From Ectocarpus siliculosus (lineage: Eukaryota; Sar; Phaeophyceae; Ectocarpales; Ectocarpaceae): DNA of 64,000 nt. The translations under genes were made by a program, and so were the position numbers. Below, piece after piece: positions 26,056 to 39,201 of the stretch; position 1 is the first letter of the stretch; each line of letters starts with the position of its first letter. The notes beneath the pieces were generated by a model. That model had not been told where the DNA came from. It ran no database searches and was given only the letters and a program-made list of their open reading frames with translations. The DNA lies in the NCBI GenBank assembly GCA_000310025.1, contig FN647849.1:250607-314606 (forward strand), in the 5' to 3' direction.

Positions 26056-29000
26056 TTAACACGTGTCGGGCAGGCTATCGTAGCTCTTGAAGTAGTCGGT
26101 GTTGTCGTCTCCCTTGAGGCAGATACCATCGGGGACCAGGTTGTTAGTCCAGACGACGTCTTCGCAATCCTCGAATCGGTACTCCTCGCCGCTGCTGTGC
26201 TCGTAGAACTTGTTGTCTGTTGATATTTTTCATTTTCCAGGTGGAAGGACGCGCGACGAGGAGGGTGTCAGTACAGACAAGATTACGTTTTTTTTAAGCC
26301 CCTATTCCGGGCAATGATTCCGTCCAGCGTGTGTTATCGGGCGCCCTTAGTGGTTGGCTCAGGAGTGGTTTGTGGAAGAGGGGTGGCACAGGGCAGCCCT
26401 GCAAGTGTAGTGACCAATTGTCCACGATACCGGGATATACTCAACGTCTTTGGATGTTTCTCCTGACATTTCAAGCTAAGACATGGGCCCTCAGGAGCGC
26501 CCCATTAGATTTGTGCTGTTGGTAGTACTTAATGCAGCACTCAACGTAACTACTATTGCGCCAGGACCAACTTCGTACTTGCTGCGCTCATCTAGGTAGC
26601 ATCTAAACAGACTGTCAGCAGCCGATGATCACGATATTGCACCGCAGGAAGGGTTGGGGGAGAGGAACCCTTCTGAGTGACCACGGATTGGAGCTCCTGC
26701 ACGGCAGAAATGCTGTACAAGCTGTGAGCGCTGATTCTAAGTGATGAATAAAAAAGTGCGGTTTTCAGCTACAGCAGAATAAGCATCGCAGAAGACGGTG
26801 CACGTAAACGTAACAACCAAAGAGCATCAAACGAGTTGCGACGAAGCGACTTGGGAAGAAACAAAGGTGTTCTACATAGAACTATACGCCAAAACGCCCC
26901 CTTCAACACATTCCAAACGTCGTATTCGCTGCATGCTGTTTCTCCTGTTCTTCTCTAACGCTTTCACCTCGCGGGTTTCTTGTAGAATCGCCTCGCACAA
27001 CGACATAAAATTAACATTAGCTTCGACAAGGACAAGTGTGAACGAGCGTCCATCGGTGAACCCTTCCTGCGACATCCATTCATTTCGACTTGAGGACACA
27101 CCGGTAAAGGCGATTCCCTCGGCCTTCTGGATCTTGACGCCGCCCTCAACAGTGTTGGCATGGAAGGTGTTGTCCACCAACAGTCCGTCCCAGTCTTTGG
27201 AGGCCTCGGGCTCGTCGTTTCCTTGGTACGTGTAGATGCCGTCTGAAACGTCAACAAGATGGGAGGAAGAAGCAGAGTGTGATTATGGCATGTTGGCATC
27301 ACAATATGGGTGAATATTTGTGTGGGCTCATCGAAAGTGGTTCTCCTTCACAAGCCTCCTCTCTAGGTGCCAAGTCTTTCGCAACTCTCGACTGGGCCCC
27401 GAGCAACGAGAAAAAACAACGCAATAGTACACAACATTTCTCCCCGCTAGCTATCGAGACCCCACGGTGTCGCCGTAGGTAATGCTTTTCGCGTGCATGT
27501 ATCGTGGAAGTGGATACGCACTGAAAGCCCGGGCCAACTTCAGTTTGTCTGTAGGTTTCGCAATGAACATTATTCAGGATGGAGGGAAACATTTTCTAGA
27601 GGTTTCCCGTGTTTCACTGCTTTAGGGAGCGGAACAAGACCACACAGAACTCACATTGGTCGCATTCGGAGAACTTGTTGTTCTCCACCACGTTGCGCGA
27701 GGCACCGACAGAGAGTCGGATGCCGTATTTGACGTTAGTGAAAGTGTTGTCGTAGATATGAGCGCCCATCGACTCCATGATGGCCATGCCTGCATCCTCC
27801 ATGTCATAGACAGTGTTTTCTGGCGCAAGGCGTACAGATGGTTGCGAAGAAGGCGAAAGTGGGAGAGGATCGAGGGTCGAGAGTGAACAATGGAACAGGG
27901 CATCGTTTGGTCTGCAGCAAGAGCAAACGAGGCGAGTAAGGGAGAGGGCACGCTACGCCAGCCAAAAATTACATCTACCCTCGCTGTCATTTTGGTTGCT
28001 TCGGGATGTGCCCTCTACCAAATACATCGTTTCGCCTGCACACAGGTATTTGCAAGACAAGCAAGCACGGCGACTTCACCGGTTGGCTTAGGGTCGTTTA
28101 AAACAGGGCACTTATTCTCCAAATATTTGGAATATTTCCAAATTTGGGAACTTTGCGCGGCGAATTCGAAGCAATAACTTTGGAAACTTTCCAAGAACTT
28201 GGAAGCTACCATTCGAAAGTTTTGGGGCCCTGCTCACTTCCGAATGCATGTTTGGAATTTGGATATTTGGAGAAAACCGCCATGATTGAAACGGCCCTTA
28301 CCCCAGACTTCGCAGTCGTCGGAGCTTCGGTGGAGGAAAATGCCGACCGCGCCTTCCCCCCCATCGTACACGGTGTTGTGGTGGATCTTGACGTTGTTGC
28401 AGCGCTTGGAGGCGATGATGCCTACGAGAAAGAGCGCACAAGCAGCGGGGAGGAAGAAGATTCATCATCGAACCCCGCCGGGATGTCGTACGATCCACGT
28501 TGCACTCCTCTAAGCGGGTTTGGTCTCTCGGAACCCAAGCATCCGCCTTTCGGGCACCACCGTGGACTACTATCAAACTGTCGTTGCCGGACGGTCATCT
28601 TGGTAAGAAAGGCAGCAGTACAGTAGCAGGCTATTTATCTGACCTCTGCGCAGCCTCGGCTAACTATCGGGTGGTAGTGAGTATAGAGACGCATGCCAGG
28701 GAAACGGACATGGGCTGATGCTCTCGAAGGGCAGGAAACACGCTCTAGGTCGGATGATAACAACAAGCGAGACCGGACAAATAGCCTTCTCTCGTACCGT
28801 GGTTGCCGTTCCCCCAAACAGTGTTGTAGGCGATCTCCAAGTTGTCGGAGTCGTCGTGGGGGTCGAAGCCGTACTGAGCGTTGTCGTGCATCTGGGAATA
28901 TTTTCGATAGATCATCGTCACAACCACCACCATCGGCAGCAGCATCCACGGGCAGGGAAAAGAGAAAAGTGAGATCAAACGCAAGCAGTTATGCCCCAGA

Positions 29001-32000
29001 AACAGGTCTTGAATGATCGGCTCTTGTGTTCAGAGCCCTACGCCAAAGTTGGGCCACATCTCGCCGTCAACTAAACAAGCATGGGGCCACACTCGGAGTA
29101 TCGCATACTATATGGTCTATTCCGAAAGTATGTGATCGACAGATGGTCCAGAAGAGAAAACAGCTGTGTTGACAGATTTTGCAAGCAGAAAAGACGTGAA
29201 CAATGTGAGCGAGGCCTAAGAAATGTCTGCACGTTTGTACCTGGTTCCCAGTCCATATTCCTCCGTCATGGCCGAAGGAGTAGTGGCCGTAGTACATGCC
29301 GTAGATATTCGAGTCGATGATGTCACCACGGACCTGGTTGGTTTGTGGAATTCGTGGTAAGCGGCGAACACGAAGTGGAGACTTGCTCAGCTTGCGCAGC
29401 TATAGTGTGATTGTTCACGGAGTTGACTCAACAGCTAGCGTGTACGTTTCAGGGGGTCAGGAGAAAAAGCTGGGGCGAACTGCTGGGGGTGTCGCGATTA
29501 GCATTCACGGCCCAAAAACTAGTTGTTATGCAGGCAAACATCGAAAATCAGGTTCATCAATCGAATTTCGATAAAAGTAGGGTCAATGTACAGCTAGCTG
29601 TCGTAGATGGCCCAACTTTTGGTATTCGGGATGGCGCCCTTCAATCGAGTACGTATGTAAGATATCCAGTCGGCATCAATGCTGACAACAAGAATATCAC
29701 GAGATCCCCCACCCCCCCCAAAAAATACACCAATACAATAGCCGCGTCAACATCAACAGCAGCAACAACAACAACGACGACGACGTAATCAATCGGGCGA
29801 AGCGACGGGTTGTTACTGAACAGCAGTATTAGCTGCTGCGATTCCAAAAGAGTATACGGCGAGTCGTCCATAGTTACCCGGGTGCGCTCGAAGAGTTCCG
29901 GGTTGGGGTCCTCGGAGCAGTACCCGCGGACCTTCCAAGAGATACCGTAGCTCTCGGCGGCGTCGTAACCCATTTCCCCCATCTCGGATCTGATGATATC
30001 CTGCACGGTGAGGTTTCGTCGCCGTCGTGATTTTAGTGCACGCTTGGTATGTTTTGACCGGGGGGTTCGGTAGTCCTAGTGGTACAGCTAGAATGGCTTG
30101 ATGGGGCGGAACAGGAGAATGAATGTACTTCGCCACTTGAAAGCTAAAATTGTTGAGTTAGCGGGAGACAACATCCATCGGGTGAGCAGAACTTTGGATA
30201 TTCGGAGACTACACAGCATGTGGCCCGTCACGCAGCTGTTTACGCAGCTGTTTACCGATTTGGTTAGGCCTTTTTTGAATGATTGGGTACGTCGAAACAT
30301 GTTTCGAAGCACACCTAATCTCCTTGCGTGCAAAACCCGCGGAGGATTACAGGAGAAGGAGAATCAATAGTGGAGGTGGGCACACGGACAGCTGCGGAGA
30401 CGCGCCGGCCAAAGAGCGTTGGACCCGATAATTTAGCCGAACTTCAACTACATAATCAACAACCACCGTACCACCATCATCATACTCTCGCTCTCCTCTC
30501 ACCATCCTGCACTCCCCCATGTGGTTCACTGCATGCCCGTCGCACGTGTCCGGGTTGTCCGCAAGCTCCTCGCTGACACATCTGACGAAGGACCTCTCCT
30601 TGTTATAGTTGGTGTTCACCTCCTTCTCGTCGGTGTCCCAGGAGGTGACCTGCGCATTTGAACGGAAGACCCCACCAACACATAGGGTGAGGAAAGACAC
30701 GAGCCGTCAGGGAGGAGGGCGGTCGGCGACGTGGCGAAGCCATGTCGTCGCTAGTGTCAAACCTCGCTGTTGTTGGGACTCACCACGAGCAGATTGAGAG
30801 CGGTGACATTCAGGTGCATTGGACGACGTCACCTGAAACACGCAGTACGACAAACATGAATACCAAGACCATCACCACTCGCTTCAGCAACACAGCGAGC
30901 CCCGGCAAAGGAATATCACTGCCAGGAGTATCTTCAATATCAACCGTAATGCGGCAGGTCTTCGCAAAGACCGATGTAATAATGTTGAATGTTGCACGAT
31001 ACCGGGGCACAATACCAACACGGTTCCAAATACGGCCGCCGTCGCCGCTGCCACCACCACCAACAATGCCAACACCACAACAGCAACCATTACCTTGGTG
31101 TCCATGAAAGACAGGCTGCCTCCGTGACCGCGAATCTCGTAGTAGTCATTCGATGCGGTAGACTGGATCCGCAGAACTCTGGCGTCTCCGCCAGCGTCCG
31201 GCCCGTGCACCTGATCACATCATGCACGCGCAAAAAAAACACCACCGCGATAGACGTTCACGCGTGCTTGAGCGCTTTGTGGTTGTATGATAAAAAAAAC
31301 TGAATGCATATTCTAATGTTTGAATTAACACCCAACGGATGAACGCTGTTGCGCAACCAACCCTGGATAGGCACTATTTCTTTGAGGGGCAAGACCTGAC
31401 GTTAAATACAGGGATTAAAAGAACAGCATTATGATACCGGCGTTTCGCTGCTGCTCAGCCACGACGAGCGGCAACGCAACTCCACCCCAAAAAGAATTTA
31501 CCCAGCATACAGAAAAATTAAATCATATAGATCCAGTTTTACCTGAAGCAATGAGTCCTCTTCGACATGGATGTCCCTCATCAGCAACCAGTACCCGGTA
31601 GGGCTTCCGCCCACAACATTGTCGTTCGAGTCGAGCACAAAGAGGGGGCCGTCGTCGTTATGCCCGCCCTGGGCGGTGTAGATGTCGGTTAGGGTGGCGC
31701 ATCCCCCTCCCCTGATGTCTGCGGGTGATTGAGGGAGCCCGAAGAAGATTCGAGTTGATCAGGCGAGGGCAGAACGGTGGGGCGATCTTCGAGTTCGGAC
31801 CGGGAGCTCGCGGCTGCGGGTTCAATGTTTCAGCTGCAGGGCACATGTAGGACACTGCTTCGATGCAACAACCACCATTGTGCCCGGCAGTGGAGCGAAC
31901 CGGGATGATGAGGGCGTTGCAAGAACATGCCATATATTCCACGCCCTACTTTGTGGGTAAATTTCCCTTGCGCTAGGGCACGAACAAGTGAAAAGGTAAA

Positions 32001-35000
32001 CATGCTTACCCTGTGGCACCTTCACCACCATGGCAACTAAATCCACTGTAACGCACCGAAGTGGCTAAGGGTGTTACCCGACCACCACCATCAAATTTGG
32101 GTGCACGATTGTCTGGTGACTTGGTGAATAACAAGCAACGATAAGGGTCTTACAAAGCATACGCGTAGGCACAACTTCTCTGGAGCCAAGCTTACCTTCT
32201 TACACGTGGTCCTAAAAAACTCAATTTCTTTTCGGCTTGCAATATTGCGGTCGACAACCCCCATTGGTAGCGCCCATTGGGCAGAGAAAGGAAAGCCTCC
32301 CTGAAGGGGTACTAAAGATTGTGTCATGTGGTATCGTCCACGCGGTAACCAAAGGTAGCGTATTTCTCCTGACTCACAGTTCTTCCCTCCGTTCTTCTTG
32401 GAGCTAGTTTGGACGTTGTTCTTGATTTCGATTGTGACGGTGGATTTGCTGTAGTCGGTGCAGGTGGAGGTGAACGTCGTGCCGTCGGTAGTGGTGGTGG
32501 TCCCGTCGACGGTCGTCGTGGTCGTCGTTGACGCACCTGCGGCGAGCGCGCGGTCGAAAGCGCGCAGCGGGCGTTAGGCGAAAAGAGGGGTTGGGGGGGT
32601 TCAGTCTAAATGACAAGCTAGGTCCGGCTAAGCCTCGACCAGAAAGTTGCTGCAGAAGACAACGGCCCGGATGGGATCGTATTCTGTGGTAGTGTAAATT
32701 TGTGCTTGTCACGACGGTGGTTGCGCATTGAAGGACAGTTGGTTCGGAACGTCCAAGGCATACGCTGTTCCTTGCTGGAGCCCCAGGCACAAGCCTTCAG
32801 ATTTCTTCTCTTGACAAGTAGATTGTAGCCGAACCATGGACGTTAACGATACTTATTCTAACGCCGAGCAGTGAAAATCTTCATGCCTGTAAGAGCGTAC
32901 TACAATGTCGAAACAACTTACTGTCCATCAGGCACGGAGACATTCCGGTTACGGAGCACAGGTTGGCGGCGGCGTCGTCCGTGCAGCACCCCTCGCCTCT
33001 CGTGCCGCATCCAGTACCGCCGCAGGTGCCGCAACCTGAACGTGCATGAGGAGCGGAGGTAGTTCGTCCTCATGCCACTGCTGTGGGATCAACCTGATAC
33101 AAATGTTCTGCTTCACTCCATGTTTTCCCGGTTGGAGGAACGAGAAAGGGGGAAGGGGATTGAGCGTGTGACCAGGTCGAGCTGCGCTAGGCAATCATGG
33201 CCCGTTTCGAGCATACGTTAAAATATGCCCCCCCGGCTTGCCAGAGAGACTGAGGAAAATAAACGCCACCCACTGATCATCTACACACCTGCGTTGCAGC
33301 AGTAGGCACCCTTTGCAACTCCTCCACACGACGTCGCCGTGGAAGCTACCGATCCGCTAGAGGTGTCGGTGGTGTAGGTGGTGTAGGTGGTGGTGTCGGT
33401 TGTGGTGGTGCTGGTGGATGAGGCTGCGTGGTGAAGAGGCAAACGGGACACGAGTGATTGCTTGAACAAGGGACCCGTGGTTACTTTTTCGCCAATTCGG
33501 CGAGCTGTGACGCCCTCTATACGCTCCTACTTGCATGTAACTCTTGGTAGAAGAACCGAAGCGGATCGAGTCAACGCCGTCCCAGAATATTTTCTCGAAA
33601 ACAAAACTGGTCATACCAAAACATCGGAGGACTGATGTATCCCCCCCGATTATGTGCCGTACTGGGTTAGTGGCAACAACTTACTTTCCATGAGGCACGG
33701 GGACATGCCGGTGGCGGAGCACAGGCTAAGCGCGGCGTCGCTTGCGCAGCACCCGTCGCCCCTCGTGCCGCATCCAGTACCTCCGCAGGTGCCGCAGCCT
33801 GTAGTGTGCGTGAGGAAGAGAGGAGGTTCGTTATGACATTGTGGGATCATCCTCATATGTGTTCGGATTAACATTGTCTACGGGGCTGGAACAAAGGGGG
33901 AAGGGGACTTGCGTGCGGCCCGGTCGGGTCATGCCTAGCAGCCATGGCCCATATGTTCGAAACTCTTGTAAATATCTCTGCACTTCCCCCCGAGTCGCGA
34001 GGGCATGACTTGACAGGAACTGTCCTTGCCGTGTCAGAGGGGACAGAGGGAAAACAATGTCAACGCCTGACCACAACCTTGTACACGCTCAAGCACCTGC
34101 GTTGCAGCAGTAGTAGCCGCTGGCGACTCCTCCGCACGACGTCGCGGTGGAAGCTACCGATGTGGTGTCACCGGTTGTGTCGGTGGTGGTGTCCGTGTTG
34201 TCAATGATGTCCGTGGTGGTAGCGGGGATCGCGGCTGCGTGGCGTTGAGGAAGTCGTATGAGGGCGAGAGAGTTTTTCGGTTTGAACATGGGAGAGTGCT
34301 TGTTCGCTCCTTCGAACCAATACCCGTGCGGATAAAGCACCATCGTTTGCGTTCAGTCGACGAAGAGATCAGCCTTGAAGGACCCAGGTACCCTTGAGGC
34401 AGGCCCGTGGGTTTTGAAGGACAAACGGAGCAACATTTGTGCTCAACGGCTCTCGTTGTTGTTTCTAAGCGTCCGTGCAACCCTTTTGAATGCGGCTCTC
34501 GCGGTTAGTTCTATCGTGGAACGACACTCCCTGCACATGCAACAACTTACAATCCATCAGGCACGGAGACTTTCCGGTGACGGAGCACAGGCTAAGCGCG
34601 GCGTCGCTCGTGCAGCACCCTTCGCCTCTACCGCCGCATCCAGTACCGCCGCAGGTGCCGCACCCTGGGTGTACATGAGGATGGGAGGTGGTTCGTCGTC
34701 ATTACACTGTGGAGTCCAACCTGTTGTATCTACTGGGTCTTTCGTCTTTGAATTGGAAGAAAAGAACGAGAGGAAGGGGGCCAGCGTGTGGTCAGGTCGG
34801 GTTGCCCAAAATTGCCATGCCCCTTTCGCGCGTGAAGTATCCCTCTATTGTTCCAATATCTGCGAGAGAGTTAGTTGGCAGGGCACAACCCTTTGCAATG
34901 TCAGCGAGGACCGAGGAAAGTGAACGCCATCGCGTGGTCACAACCCGACTATTTCGGGCCACGTCCACGCACCTGCGTTGCAGCAGTAGGCGCCCTTGGA

Positions 35001-38000
35001 AACCCCGTCGCACGATGTCGCCGTCGCATCTGCCACTGAGATGCCGCTGGTCGTGTCGGTGGTGGTGTCGGTGATGGTAGTGGCGGTGGACGCGGCTGCG
35101 TAACGTTGGGGGGGTGGTATACGATGAGAGAAGCGAGTTGGAAGAATGCGTCCGTGGTTGATTGGTTCGAAGCTACCCGTACAGATGGGAGGACACGCGT
35201 CGGAGCAAACTTCGCAGGGGAGGTCGGTTTTGTTAACCTGTGGAGTCTTTGCAGTCTTAAGGAAGCGTCATTGCTGTTGAAAGAGAATCTCGTAAGTGTC
35301 GAGATGAAAATTAGCAGCAATATTCGTGCTCAGTGACGTTTGTTACCGTGTTGATGCCGACCGTTGCAGCTCCAGTGACTGAAGCAGTTTTCACGGGTTG
35401 GTTGTGTTTTGGACCGATACCCCCTCCCATCATGTACAGCATGCAATGTCAAACAACTTACAATCCATCAGGCACGGAGACTTTCCGGTGACAGAGCACA
35501 GGCTAAGCGCGGCGTCGCTCGTGCAGCACCCTTCGCCTCTCATGCCGCATCCAGTGCCTCCGCAGGTGCCGCAACCTAGGTGTGCATGAGGAGGGGAGGT
35601 GGTTCGTCGTCATGGCCCTGAGAATTGCCAGCCAGTCTGACTACTGTTGTAATTGCTAGGGGAGACAGCGATAGTGAGAGAGAACACTGTGTGGCCAAGG
35701 TGTTTCGCTGCGAGCAATTGGAACCCGTTTTATCGACACGGGGACTTCCACCGGTATCCCTCCGAGTCACGGCCGGATCACTCGAGAGGAAATACCCCGT
35801 GACGTCAGACGGGACCAACAGGATTGAACCATGTGTACACATGACAACAACAACCCAACAATCGTCTTGCGCCGAGATACCTGCGTTGCAGCAGTAGGCG
35901 CCCTTGGCTACGCCGCCGCACGACGTCGCCGTGGAGACTGCCTCTGAGGTGCCGCTAGTCGTGTCGGTAGTGGTAGTGATGTCGGTGGTGGTAGTGGTGG
36001 ACGCGGCTGCGCGACGTCGAGGAGGCGGCACGATCGGACCACGCTTGTTGTTAGAACATGAAGTATTGCGGTCGCTGGGTAGTCTATTGCAGGTTGGTCC
36101 GTCCAACAACGGACATTTGACCATCATGATAGCTTGGACGAAAGCGAACAACAACGAAACCCCATTGGCTTCACGAAGAAACTTTTGCACTCGAAAATTG
36201 TCATGCACGAAGAAAAAGAGCGCACACGCAAGCTGCAAGGAAGCAGCGTGTTGTTCCACCTTGCCGTTAGAACCGTAGCGTATTTTTAGCTGCTCATCGT
36301 CGGCTTTGGAAAACCTTCGCGAAAATATTTGCCAAGCAATACGTGCACGATGACAACGACGAATAACTTACAATCCATCAGGCACGGAGACTTTCCGGTG
36401 GCGGAGCACAGGCTCTCCGCGGCGTCGCTCGTGCAGCACCCTTCGCCTCTACCGCCGCACCCAGTACCGCCGCAGGTGCCGCAACCTGAGTTCACATTAG
36501 GCGAGGAGATGGGGTTTCAAAATGATCGCGTGGCAGAGACAAAAAAGGGGGCTGGAGGGTGACCAGGCCTGGTCACACCGAATGGTCAGCAACGCTGCAC
36601 TGACAGTCCCGTCATGTCCCCGAGTAGCGGAACATCACGGTTGCAAAACAACCCTATGGGGTATCAGGCGTGAGTATCCAAGCGGCGAGAATAATGCCTC
36701 CACGCCACTACAACCTACTAGTTCTACTATAGATCCACGCACCGGCATTGCAACAGAAGGCACCCTTGGCAACTCCGCCACACGATGTGGCCGTGGAGGC
36801 GACCGACGACGTGCCGCTGGTTGAGACGGTGGTGGTAGTTGTTGTTGTGCCGGTAGTTTGGCCGGCGGTGTCGCCTGAAAGCGTTTGGTGAGTCGCAGGG
36901 AGAAGGGGCGAGGGTACAAGCAACATCGCGTCTAGACAAGAAAAAGTACCACGTAATATTCGGCGAACTATTCTCCCTATACAACCTTTCTCCATGTTGT
37001 GAAGGTCTCTAAATTAATACTCATGCACGCCGTGTGTTTCCTGGCAGTCGGATTGTTTTGGGTACGCTGTTCGTGTAACCACCGGAAGTTCCGTGCCGCC
37101 AACGAGTTATTTTTTTCTTGGAAGCCGGTGTTCCAAGCGTCAGTCGGATTGTTTTGGGTACGCTGTTCGTGTAACCACCGGAAGTTCCGTGCCGCCAACG
37201 AGTTATTTTTTTCTTGGAAGCCGGTGTTCCAAGCGTCATCTTCGAAACAGGTGCTTAATTCAGCCTGTTGTGGTAGTGTCAAGAGTTAGTGGTTCTACCG
37301 TTGACTGAACACATGATGGACTTGAGCAGCGAGGTGTCATTAAACACAGCTCAGCCGCATGCAGGCAGACCTATCATTGTGCTCAGCCCCAGCCAGAAAC
37401 TACTCACCAAGGTCGCTGCCGCCGCTCATGACGCACGGGGCAGACTGGTCGTCGCAAGATTTGTTGGCCGCGGCGATCGTGCTGGTGCAGCACTCGTCTC
37501 CGCTGAGGCCGCCCCGCCCAGAGCAACCGGAGCCACCACAGTAGCCGCAACCTTGAGTGCGCACGGAAGGGGTGCGGTGGGAGGGAGGTTTTTTCTCCTC
37601 ACGGCAGTATGTTTTTCTTCGGCCAGCGTTTATTGCACTGTAAAAGGATTTTTACACTGCAATACCGGAGAACGAAAACACGATGGAAAGGGAGAAGGCC
37701 TTCAGATAGAAATTCAGACGAAATGGTGTTGAACCCATATGTCGAGGGAACACCACACGAAAAACCGGTGAGGTCAAAGCGGAGCGGAGCAACGCACGCG
37801 GCTGAAACGACAACAATCTAGGATTGGTAGTATCCACATACCTGCCGAACAGCAGATATCGCCCTTGGCCACGCCGTTGCTGCAGGTGGGGTCGGCCTCC
37901 GTCTATCCAAGGGGTGGGGCGTTGGCGGGTTCAATTTTTGGAGTCAGGGAATGCTTAGTTATCGTATGGAGTGGGTGTAGTAAACGTAAGAAACGGGCGT

Positions 38001-39201
38001 AGTCTAGTGGCGTGTCACGCCCGTAGTTGACTGCACGAACAGATGGCAGGGTTCCTACAGTGACGAAACTGACCGATACGACGACCTACAGCCACATTAC
38101 AAATAGCATACCTCCTCGTCGATGACGCACGGAGCCTCCTGAGTGACCGAGCACAAATGGTTGTCCGCTTTGATGGTGGATGTGCAGCAGTCGTACTTGG
38201 TGAGGCCAGGCCGTGACCCACAGCCTTCGTTGTACAGGAGAAAGAAAGGTGAAGAAACCAGAAAGGGGCGGAGGGGGCGTGAGGTCTTTATCGAATGGAA
38301 CAGAAAAATTCTACCGAAGCGACACACTACTTTGAAGAGAGACAGCGAAAGGTAGAGAAGAGACATACGATATTTTATTATGTGCTTCTACCACGGTCTA
38401 CACAGAGAAAATGAACGAGAGAGAGAGAGGGCAGTATTCGCCAAACGTACCAGTTCCGCCGCAGGTCCCACATTCAACCGGACAGCACACACCGCCTTTC
38501 TCAAGCCCGGAGAGGCCGTTGCTGCACGTGGTGCCACTGGCTGTTTGCACAAGTACGATCGACAGACAGGGACGGCAGGTAGATGGGGGGAATCATCACC
38601 AGATAAACAACATTATATCATTTAGCGGAACTAGCGCCTTGTTAGAGTAGTGGTGTTTTGCGTAGAAGGGTCAAAGGTGCCTTAGTTACACCAAGACCAG
38701 CTCTTCGTTTCCTTCGCCTTGTCGTATTTTTCTCCCGGTATTTTTTATTTGCTCTGACCTTGTGACTGTTGTCTACAGTACTGTTGTCGTGCCCTCCAAA
38801 ACGCGTTCTGACCTCTGTCCAGTTTTCTATCTGATTTGTGATGTCGACTTAACAGCTAAATGATGGTTCTTCAATGCACGCGTACGCACGTACTACGTAC
38901 GTTGACGTTGTTGACCCCCCCCCTCGAGAAGGTCCCGTTATCCGAGCAAGAATACTGATGATGTGGGACGTTGGAAAAATGAAACGTCGGAGTACCTTGC
39001 AAGGCTACAGACCTAGTCTATTCTTGTACCACATGAAAATTTACGAAAAACAAAGATTGTATCCCCATAAAGAGAGGCCCAAGGAAAAAAATGCGAAATA
39101 ATAAACATACGTGAAGCAACAATGTAACTGGTGAGGACCAGGCAAGCCCACTCACCACGGGCGACCCCAACCGATAACAGAATCAGCTTGAAGAGATGCA
39201 T
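26056..39201 (-). CDS. Secreted mannuronan C5-epimerase with seven Cys-rich modules
   Basis: Twenty-seven minus-strand exons: 39156-39201, 38451-38540, 38112-38224, 37842-37902, 37408-37551, 36743-36874, 36372-36485, 35881-36006, 35462-35575, 34973-35095, 34551-34664, 34097-34234, 33685-33798, 33289-33423, 32922-33035, 32378-32536, 32010-32045, 31543-31718, 31094-31210, 30503-30649, 29878-30000, 29241-29333, 28798-28891, 28302-28421, 27655-27819, 27102-27242 and 26056-26216 (3,210 nt, 1,069 residues, all GT-AG and in phase). Residues 1-16 are a signal peptide (MHLFKLILLSVGVARA). Residues 17-560 are seven ten-cysteine modules with Thr-rich linkers. From about residue 560 a right-handed beta-helix like AlgG follows: TSWDTDEKEVN, then YYGHYSFGHDGG, then YGFDPHDDSDN (DPHD near residue 853), then N-rich coils. 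In AlgG the His of DPHD is the catalytic base. The enzyme converts D-mannuronate to L-guluronate in alginate, at or outside the plasma membrane. Substrate preference cannot be read from sequence. Confidence 0.9.
32922..38540 (-). repeat. Seven tandem two-exon Cys-rich modules
   Basis: Each module has two exons joined by a phase-1 intron: (38451-38540 + 38112-38224), (37842-37902 + 37408-37551), (36743-36874 + 36372-36485), (35881-36006 + 35462-35575), (34973-35095 + 34551-34664), (34097-34234 + 33685-33798) and (33289-33423 + 32922-33035). The first exon ends near CGGVAKGAYCCNAG. The second reads CGTCGGTGCG, then GCCTSDAA, LCS-x-TG and SPCLMD. Ten Cys are kept in every module. The second exon is exactly 114 nt in modules 3 to 7. 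Modules 1 and 2 are the most divergent. Intron sequence next to the 114-nt exons is also shared, so whole exon pairs were duplicated. The fold is unknown to me; carbohydrate binding is only a guess. Confidence 0.85.
37045..37236. repeat. 96-bp direct tandem duplication in intron
   Basis: Two identical-looking 96-bp copies (37045-37140 and 37141-37236), each beginning CAGTCGGATTGTTTTGGG, sit in the intron between exons 5 and 6 of the epimerase. The lack of visible differences means the duplication is recent or an assembly collapse or expansion product. Confidence 0.9.

Follow-up and report, generated by a model that had tools for sequence, protein, structure and literature searches.

Seven ten-cysteine modules on a predicted mannuronan C5-epimerase of Ectocarpus siliculosus: candidate carbohydrate-binding-like accessory modules

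A mannuronan C5-epimerase (ManC5-E) gene of the brown alga Ectocarpus siliculosus is predicted to place a string of seven small cysteine-rich modules ahead of its catalytic domain. Enzymes of this type stiffen alginate in the cell wall. The gene lies in a 64,000-nucleotide stretch (assembly GCA_000310025.1, contig FN647849.1, positions 250,607 to 314,606), hereafter called the window. We consider it rather probable that the seven-copy array consists of accessory carbohydrate-binding-like modules that hold the epimerase on alginate or on the wall matrix. The module is small, rich in Cys and located at enzyme ends, and it recurs with a lyase, with glucanase-like enzymes, with epimerases and with wall-type domains. 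Hence, it behaves like a carbohydrate-binding module (CBM). In this sense, the recurrent joining to carbohydrate-active enzymes that defines the CBM class was found with ManC5-Es, with PL14 and GH16 in frame, with a beta-helix-like family and with a GH114 domain nearby.

Three-frame translation with hand-set GT-AG borders places the gene on the minus strand, from 39201 (ATG) to 26056 (end of the stop codon). The resulting hand model comprises 26 exons that join without frame error into 3174 nt and 1057 residues. In order, the protein consists of a signal-like peptide (a hydrophobic N-terminus in exon 1, judged by eye), the seven ten-cysteine modules with Thr/Ser-rich linkers, and an AlgG-type ManC5-E with a DPHD motif; it is presumably secreted. 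A preliminary description of this DNA had given the same coordinates and strand, and its count of 27 exons has to be lowered by one. Exons 2-15 code for the modules, two exons for each. The intron within the module is located between the CC pair and the CGxCGG core in modules 2-7, and inside the core in module 1. Intron phase is 0 at the joint of modules 1 and 2. The introns that follow, from the one that splits module 2 to the one in front of the first epimerase exon, are all in phase 1. Such uniform phase 1 introns are as expected for units open to duplication or shuffling.

The seven copies share the frame C-x(8-12)-CC-x3-C-x2-C-x4-C-x(6-10)-CC-x(8-10)-C-x(6-7)-C. A regular expression run on the protein returned exactly seven modules (residues 21-78, 90-143, 183-230, 263-310, 342-389, 426-473 and 509-556), every one with ten cysteines, in agreement with the number and the conserved frame first proposed. 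An intron-free CGxCGGxGC core is present in six of the seven modules and can be read directly in the DNA, and none occurred in 100 dinucleotide shuffles of the window; thus, six intact cores are unexpected by chance. The cysteines are likely paired in disulfides within the modules. The linkers between modules 2 and 7, and the one before the epimerase, contain 50-74% Thr plus Ser. Altogether they amount to 178 residues, including 82 Thr, 29 Ser and neither Lys nor Arg, and they are probably O-glycosylated. At the DNA level, identity between second exons is 90-95% among modules 3-5 and 83-95% among modules 3-7, and between first exons it is 74-88%. The internal introns of modules 4-7 align over 213-284 bases with 64-76% identity; for other intron pairs there is hardly any alignment. 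A shuffled control for these comparisons was uninformative (50-100% identity over unreported lengths). This pattern suggests that the copies arose by fairly recent duplication and that their coding part is under constraint.

The databases searched gave the module no name, DUF6975 apart. No match to modules scanned alone was obtained in Pfam (three of the seven window modules and three other algal modules), in NCBIfam (three modules) or in the PDB (one module), and a profile search of the PDB with the module returned only chain 4MCK, at E 0.54. DUF6975 (PF22391) scored 31.6 bits against a cut-off of 27 on the full-length protein, but no stretch passes alone. The highest-scoring part joins the end of a module to a linker; we took the match as repeat noise and rejected the name. 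The WSC domain (PF01822) was also rejected, as the modules scanned gave no WSC match and WSC adjoins modules in other genes. The R-module of bacterial AlgE was discarded on the evidence of the whole-protein Pfam scan, which contained no calcium-binding nonapeptide family. The known CBMs that we considered were likewise rejected as the module family. A literature search found no mention of the module in the texts it covered, and we make no claim that its presence on ManC5-Es is undescribed; the available part of the main text of PMC11468063 contains no word starting with 'cystein'.

The catalytic part belongs to a well-known group of enzymes. Pfam places NosD and Beta_helix above their cut-offs in the epimerase part, and the NCBIfam AlgG model NF038177 matches with 98.9 bits, short of the 700 that it requires of an equivalog. 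In the PDB, the solved C5-epimerases 4OZY and 4NK6, the latter from Pseudomonas syringae (PMC11468063), match at E about 1e-18, and the DPHD motif at residue 841 aligns with the DPHD of both. The catalytic part is therefore predicted to be an AlgG-type right-handed beta-helix mannuronan C5-epimerase. The proposed catalytic acid of P. syringae AlgG is Arg345. In the PDB alignment, the Lys of SKRCNN stands opposite the Arg of SREVDN, and the adjacent residue is Arg; SKRC was also read in many ManC5-E paralogues of the same genome. Both the modular C5-epimerase with a DPHD-bearing beta-helix and the lack of a named domain for the module, as proposed in the preliminary description, are borne out by these searches.

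The module is also found beside other ManC5-Es of the alga. In the assembly (189 Mb, 492 contigs), we grouped 59 exon matches into 21 ManC5-E loci. Scans with hidden Markov models (HMMs) detected modules upstream and on the same strand at seven of the 21, the window gene included: seven copies in the window gene, five at C14, two each at C8:0.37 Mb, C26:6.81 Mb and C26:6.77 Mb, and one each at C21 and C56. Some of the module first exons score weakly (E 0.05 at C14, 0.02 at C8). A rough sum, based on about 150 module matches listed in 189 Mb, gives a chance expectation of about 0.1 such loci. At a further locus, C368 (535000-544900; L026, L097), a divergent ManC5-E precedes a PTDD-rich linker and about five modules (one degenerate), all on the same strand and in the reverse of the order in the window gene. 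The end of its catalytic part was set by eye at the apparent last beta-helix turn, and the DNA scanned upstream was about 1 kb. This array is probably C-terminal, provided that the gene is continuous. The initial impression that the window array stands out holds in that it is the largest N-terminal array seen among the ManC5-E loci; it is not isolated, since seven or eight of the 21 loci carry modules.

A tree of 19 sequences joins six of the seven loci with upstream modules, together with C8:2.03 Mb, in one clade of seven (FastTree local support 0.984). The seventh such locus, C21, and also C25a were left out for having too few core columns, and the query-anchored rows include some intron read-through. 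Because C368 falls outside this clade of N-terminal arrays, the tree suggests that the module was recruited to ManC5-Es twice. Two features of the paralogues may be recorded here. The locus on C16 (L027 389-2725, about 4.2734-4.2757 Mb) holds a ManC5-E in one uninterrupted frame of 778 residues, where other loci match as several exons. The protein has a tail rich in Pro, Thr and Ser, and its hydrophobic C-terminus may be a membrane or glycosylphosphatidylinositol anchor. C181, C13 and C25 (L023-L025) carry six similar ManC5-E copies, without modules seen, that pair up either in tandem or in opposite orientation; the core is nearly the same in C181a, C181b and C13b.

To judge from its sequence, the same ten-cysteine module clearly occurs in bacteria, a finding that is new in this analysis. 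Similarity scans that used an alignment of the seven modules pointed to 46 viral and 35 bacterial stretches; tblastn confirmed none of them. The DNA pattern CC-x3-CGxCGGxGC selected 50 loci in bacterial and archaeal species genomes and one in viral contigs, and the algal-module profile found 24 of these 51 at E values from 6e-17 to 8e-9, the next best being 8e-4. The single viral-contig locus had no HMM match among the matches listed, and no module was found in plasmid records. All 24 bacterial modules contain ten cysteines with the same inner spacing, and no Pfam match in the 24 frames falls on the module. According to the record titles, 15 loci come from Deltaproteobacteria or Myxococcales kin, one from Oligoflexales, one from Microbulbifer okhotskensis, and seven from records labelled only as proteobacteria or bacteria. 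One module match per genome was obtained in ten of ten of these bacterial genomes. When 282 genomes sampled from one phylum were searched, with the best 22 candidates scored in each, 13 matched; judged by identifier or frame length, all 13 were apparently among those already found by the pattern. The module is thus uncommon in the phylum sampled.

In 23 of the 24 bacterial loci, the module forms the C-terminal end of the open frame. Its partner in 19 frames (the query included) is a single beta-helix-like family, with E below 1e-10 to the L069 core; beta-helix and hyaluronate-lyase models match it weakly and fall short of their cut-offs. Two frames carry GH16 (Archangium and Myxococcaceae) and one, from M. 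okhotskensis (L054), carries PL14 with an alginate lyase as best PDB match. No partner was recognised in the remaining two (L035, L074). PDB searches with the C-terminal part of L074 and with the beta-helix-like protein L069 gave nothing useful. One frame (L031) has a Pfam repeat match, PF00526, outside the module.

Elsewhere in the algal genome, two overlapping profile searches (E up to 0.05) returned at least 149 and at least 150 module matches, half-module exons being tallied separately. The region C4:5399565-5436873 holds 27 of the listed matches on one strand, and its end adjoins a WSC domain above cut-off; this run may be a giant wall protein or a gene cluster. In two single-exon frames a WSC-like stretch stands directly before the module, with 24.3 bits against a cut-off of 27.8 in L092 and by eye only in L093. 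A module at C26:5.1 Mb is followed, on its own strand and presumably within one gene, by a GH114 domain (53.9 bits). Two further occurrences were noted. L014 (C10:1570500-1575500) combines a module frame with two nearby features, a repeat region of Gly, Thr and Pro and an acidic stretch that resembles a dockerin or EF-hand but stays below the Pfam cut-offs, and another module lies on the plus strand about 7 kb past the right end of the window (C475:322021-322227), in an open frame of 139 residues.

The algal and bacterial partners of the module are compatible with the tethering to wall or substrate that was first suggested. The secreted epimerase would carry an N-terminal string of seven small disulfide-rich modules on Thr/Ser-rich spacers, each module binding a carbohydrate of the wall matrix. 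Seven such modules in series, on flexible and probably glycosylated spacers, would provide avidity and hold the catalytic domain to the polymer it acts on within the wall gel, allowing many epimerisations per binding event. Residence time and G-block length would then depend on the array, in a way comparable to the effect of the one to seven R-modules of bacterial AlgE. The ligand could be alginate itself or a neighbouring polymer of the matrix.

Several observations weigh against this proposal. No module was seen at 13 of the 21 ManC5-E loci, where the upstream DNA scanned covered 0.1-0.5 kb (C181a, C25a, C25b and C16) or about 2.4-5.3 kb (elsewhere), with hardly any downstream; these absences are not firm, because only the best-scoring candidates were taken and the DNA scanned beside the loci was short. 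C8:2.03 Mb, without a module seen, sits inside the module-bearing clade, and C23 shows one weak module match (E 0.002) amid catalytic exons. Moreover, modules 1-7 each have one or two aromatic residues and a net charge of -1 to -4, and the net charge of the 24 bacterial modules spans -8 to +8. With so few aromatics, such charges and linkers devoid of Lys and Arg, there is no sign of the usual aromatic platform or of a simple positively charged patch that would suit a polyanion. Finally, the bacterial partners differ in their likely substrate (GH16 glucanase-like, beta-helix, PL14), which makes a single shared ligand doubtful.

The charge of the modules, which does not point to alginate, would suit an array that serves as a wall anchor only, binding another wall component (cellulose, fucan or protein) or joining modules to one another by disulfides, with no effect on processivity. 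This reading also draws on the many modules that form long runs or occupy open frames with low-complexity linkers, likely structural wall proteins; one such run ends beside WSC. However, the bacterial module was single in all ten genomes scanned and sits mostly on enzyme-like proteins, which can have no native brown algal wall to be fixed in; one of its partners is alginate-lyase-like. We regard a pure anchor as unlikely, though worth keeping in mind. It is more improbable still that the array is a passive repeat, expanded by unequal crossing-over, whose seven copies do no more than one would. The near identity of the second exons of modules 3-5 and the range of zero to seven copies among paralogues are what such a process would leave, but the introns have drifted while the first and second exons stay similar, and all modules keep their ten cysteines, so that the copies look constrained.

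The joint of array and epimerase is a feature of the hand gene model, and the two could in principle be neighbouring genes merged by an annotation artefact. Such a merger is very hard to reconcile with the layout of the locus, and we rejected it: the phase is 1 on both sides of the joint, the first epimerase exon opens with the same type of Thr-rich linker as the modules, and at six paralogous loci the same epimerase exons are preceded by modules on their strand. Reading frame, splice phase and paralogues together lead us to infer a single transcript for modules and epimerase.

The accessory-module reading can be placed beside several known systems. The window gene shares with other brown algal ManC5-Es the beta-helix catalytic domain, the DPHD motif and similarity to AlgG, and differs by its seven N-terminal ten-cysteine modules. 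As in CBM32, CBM113 (UKD) and the TARP repeats of Nitzschia, the module is a non-catalytic part of alginate-active enzymes. CBM32 is larger than the ten-cysteine module. These alginate-binding units are documented as non-catalytic parts of their enzymes (PMC11960938, PMC13235733). UKD is a nine-stranded beta-barrel, and the TARP repeats bind alginate through Arg; in contrast, the linkers of the window gene hold neither Arg nor Lys. AlgE enzymes bear between one and seven R-modules, which reportedly act as carbohydrate-binding modules (PMC12269086). In Azotobacter AlgE they follow the catalytic module and carry nine-residue calcium-binding motifs, whereas the algal modules are rich in Cys and N-terminal, except at C368. 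The likeness is thus one of analogy, implying neither homology nor membership. The bacterial module proteins share the ten-cysteine frame with the alga and differ in having one module each, C-terminal in nearly all, on other catalytic domains.

Brown algal genomes contain 27 ManC5-Es on average, all with DPHD (PMC11468063), and in 2015 the differences in the alginate made by these many enzymes were described as unknown (PMC4444821). Should the number of modules control G-block length or the targeting of the enzyme to the wall, alginate stiffness would have a determinant open to testing, of interest for wall mechanics and to the alginate industry. The module is common to algal epimerases and bacterial alginate-lyase-like or glucanase-like enzymes and is unrecognised by Pfam and NCBIfam in the scans made, which makes it a good candidate for a new family of binding modules. 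It deserves attention above all for this connection with bacterial GH16 and alginate-lyase-like proteins. A broader proposal, which we put forward tentatively and as somewhat short of an even chance, is that a new, unnamed disulfide-rich CBM family of bacteria and brown algae was recruited to epimerases at least twice (the N-terminal clade and the C-terminal array of C368) and amplified, that module number sets the residence of the epimerase on alginate and hence wall stiffness, and that the outcome is convergent with the R-module arrays of AlgE.

All exons of the hand model lie on the minus strand. Exon 1 (39156-39201) codes for the signal-like peptide (MHLFKLILLSVGVAR) and ends in phase 1. 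The module exons rest on the hand model and on the module pattern. Module 1 is split between exon 2 (38451-38540) and exon 3 (38112-38224, ending in phase 0), and module 2 between exons 4 (37842-37902) and 5 (37408-37551). From module 3 onward, a linker precedes the first part of the module in the same exon, and is Thr-rich in exon 6: first and second parts lie in exons 6 (36743-36874) and 7 (36372-36485) for module 3, 8 (35881-36006) and 9 (35462-35575) for module 4, 10 (34973-35095) and 11 (34551-34664) for module 5, 12 (34097-34234) and 13 (33685-33798) for module 6, and 14 (33289-33423) and 15 (32922-33035) for module 7. Exon 16 (32378-32536) contains the last Thr-rich linker and the start of the epimerase region, which continues through exons 17 (31543-31718, with paralogous stretches), 18 (31094-31210) and 19 (30503-30649). 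The beta-helix occupies exons 20 (29878-30000) and 21 (29241-29333), both with PDB and paralogue exon matches, exon 22 (28798-28891), with the DPHD motif and a PDB match, exon 23 (28302-28421; GIIASKRCNN), with a PDB match, exon 24 (27655-27819), with Pfam and paralogue exon matches, and exon 25 (27102-27242), with paralogue exon matches. The latter also mark exon 26 (26056-26216), which holds the end of the epimerase and the stop codon. The intron between modules 2 and 3 contains two perfect head-to-tail copies of a 96-base unit (window 37045-37238).

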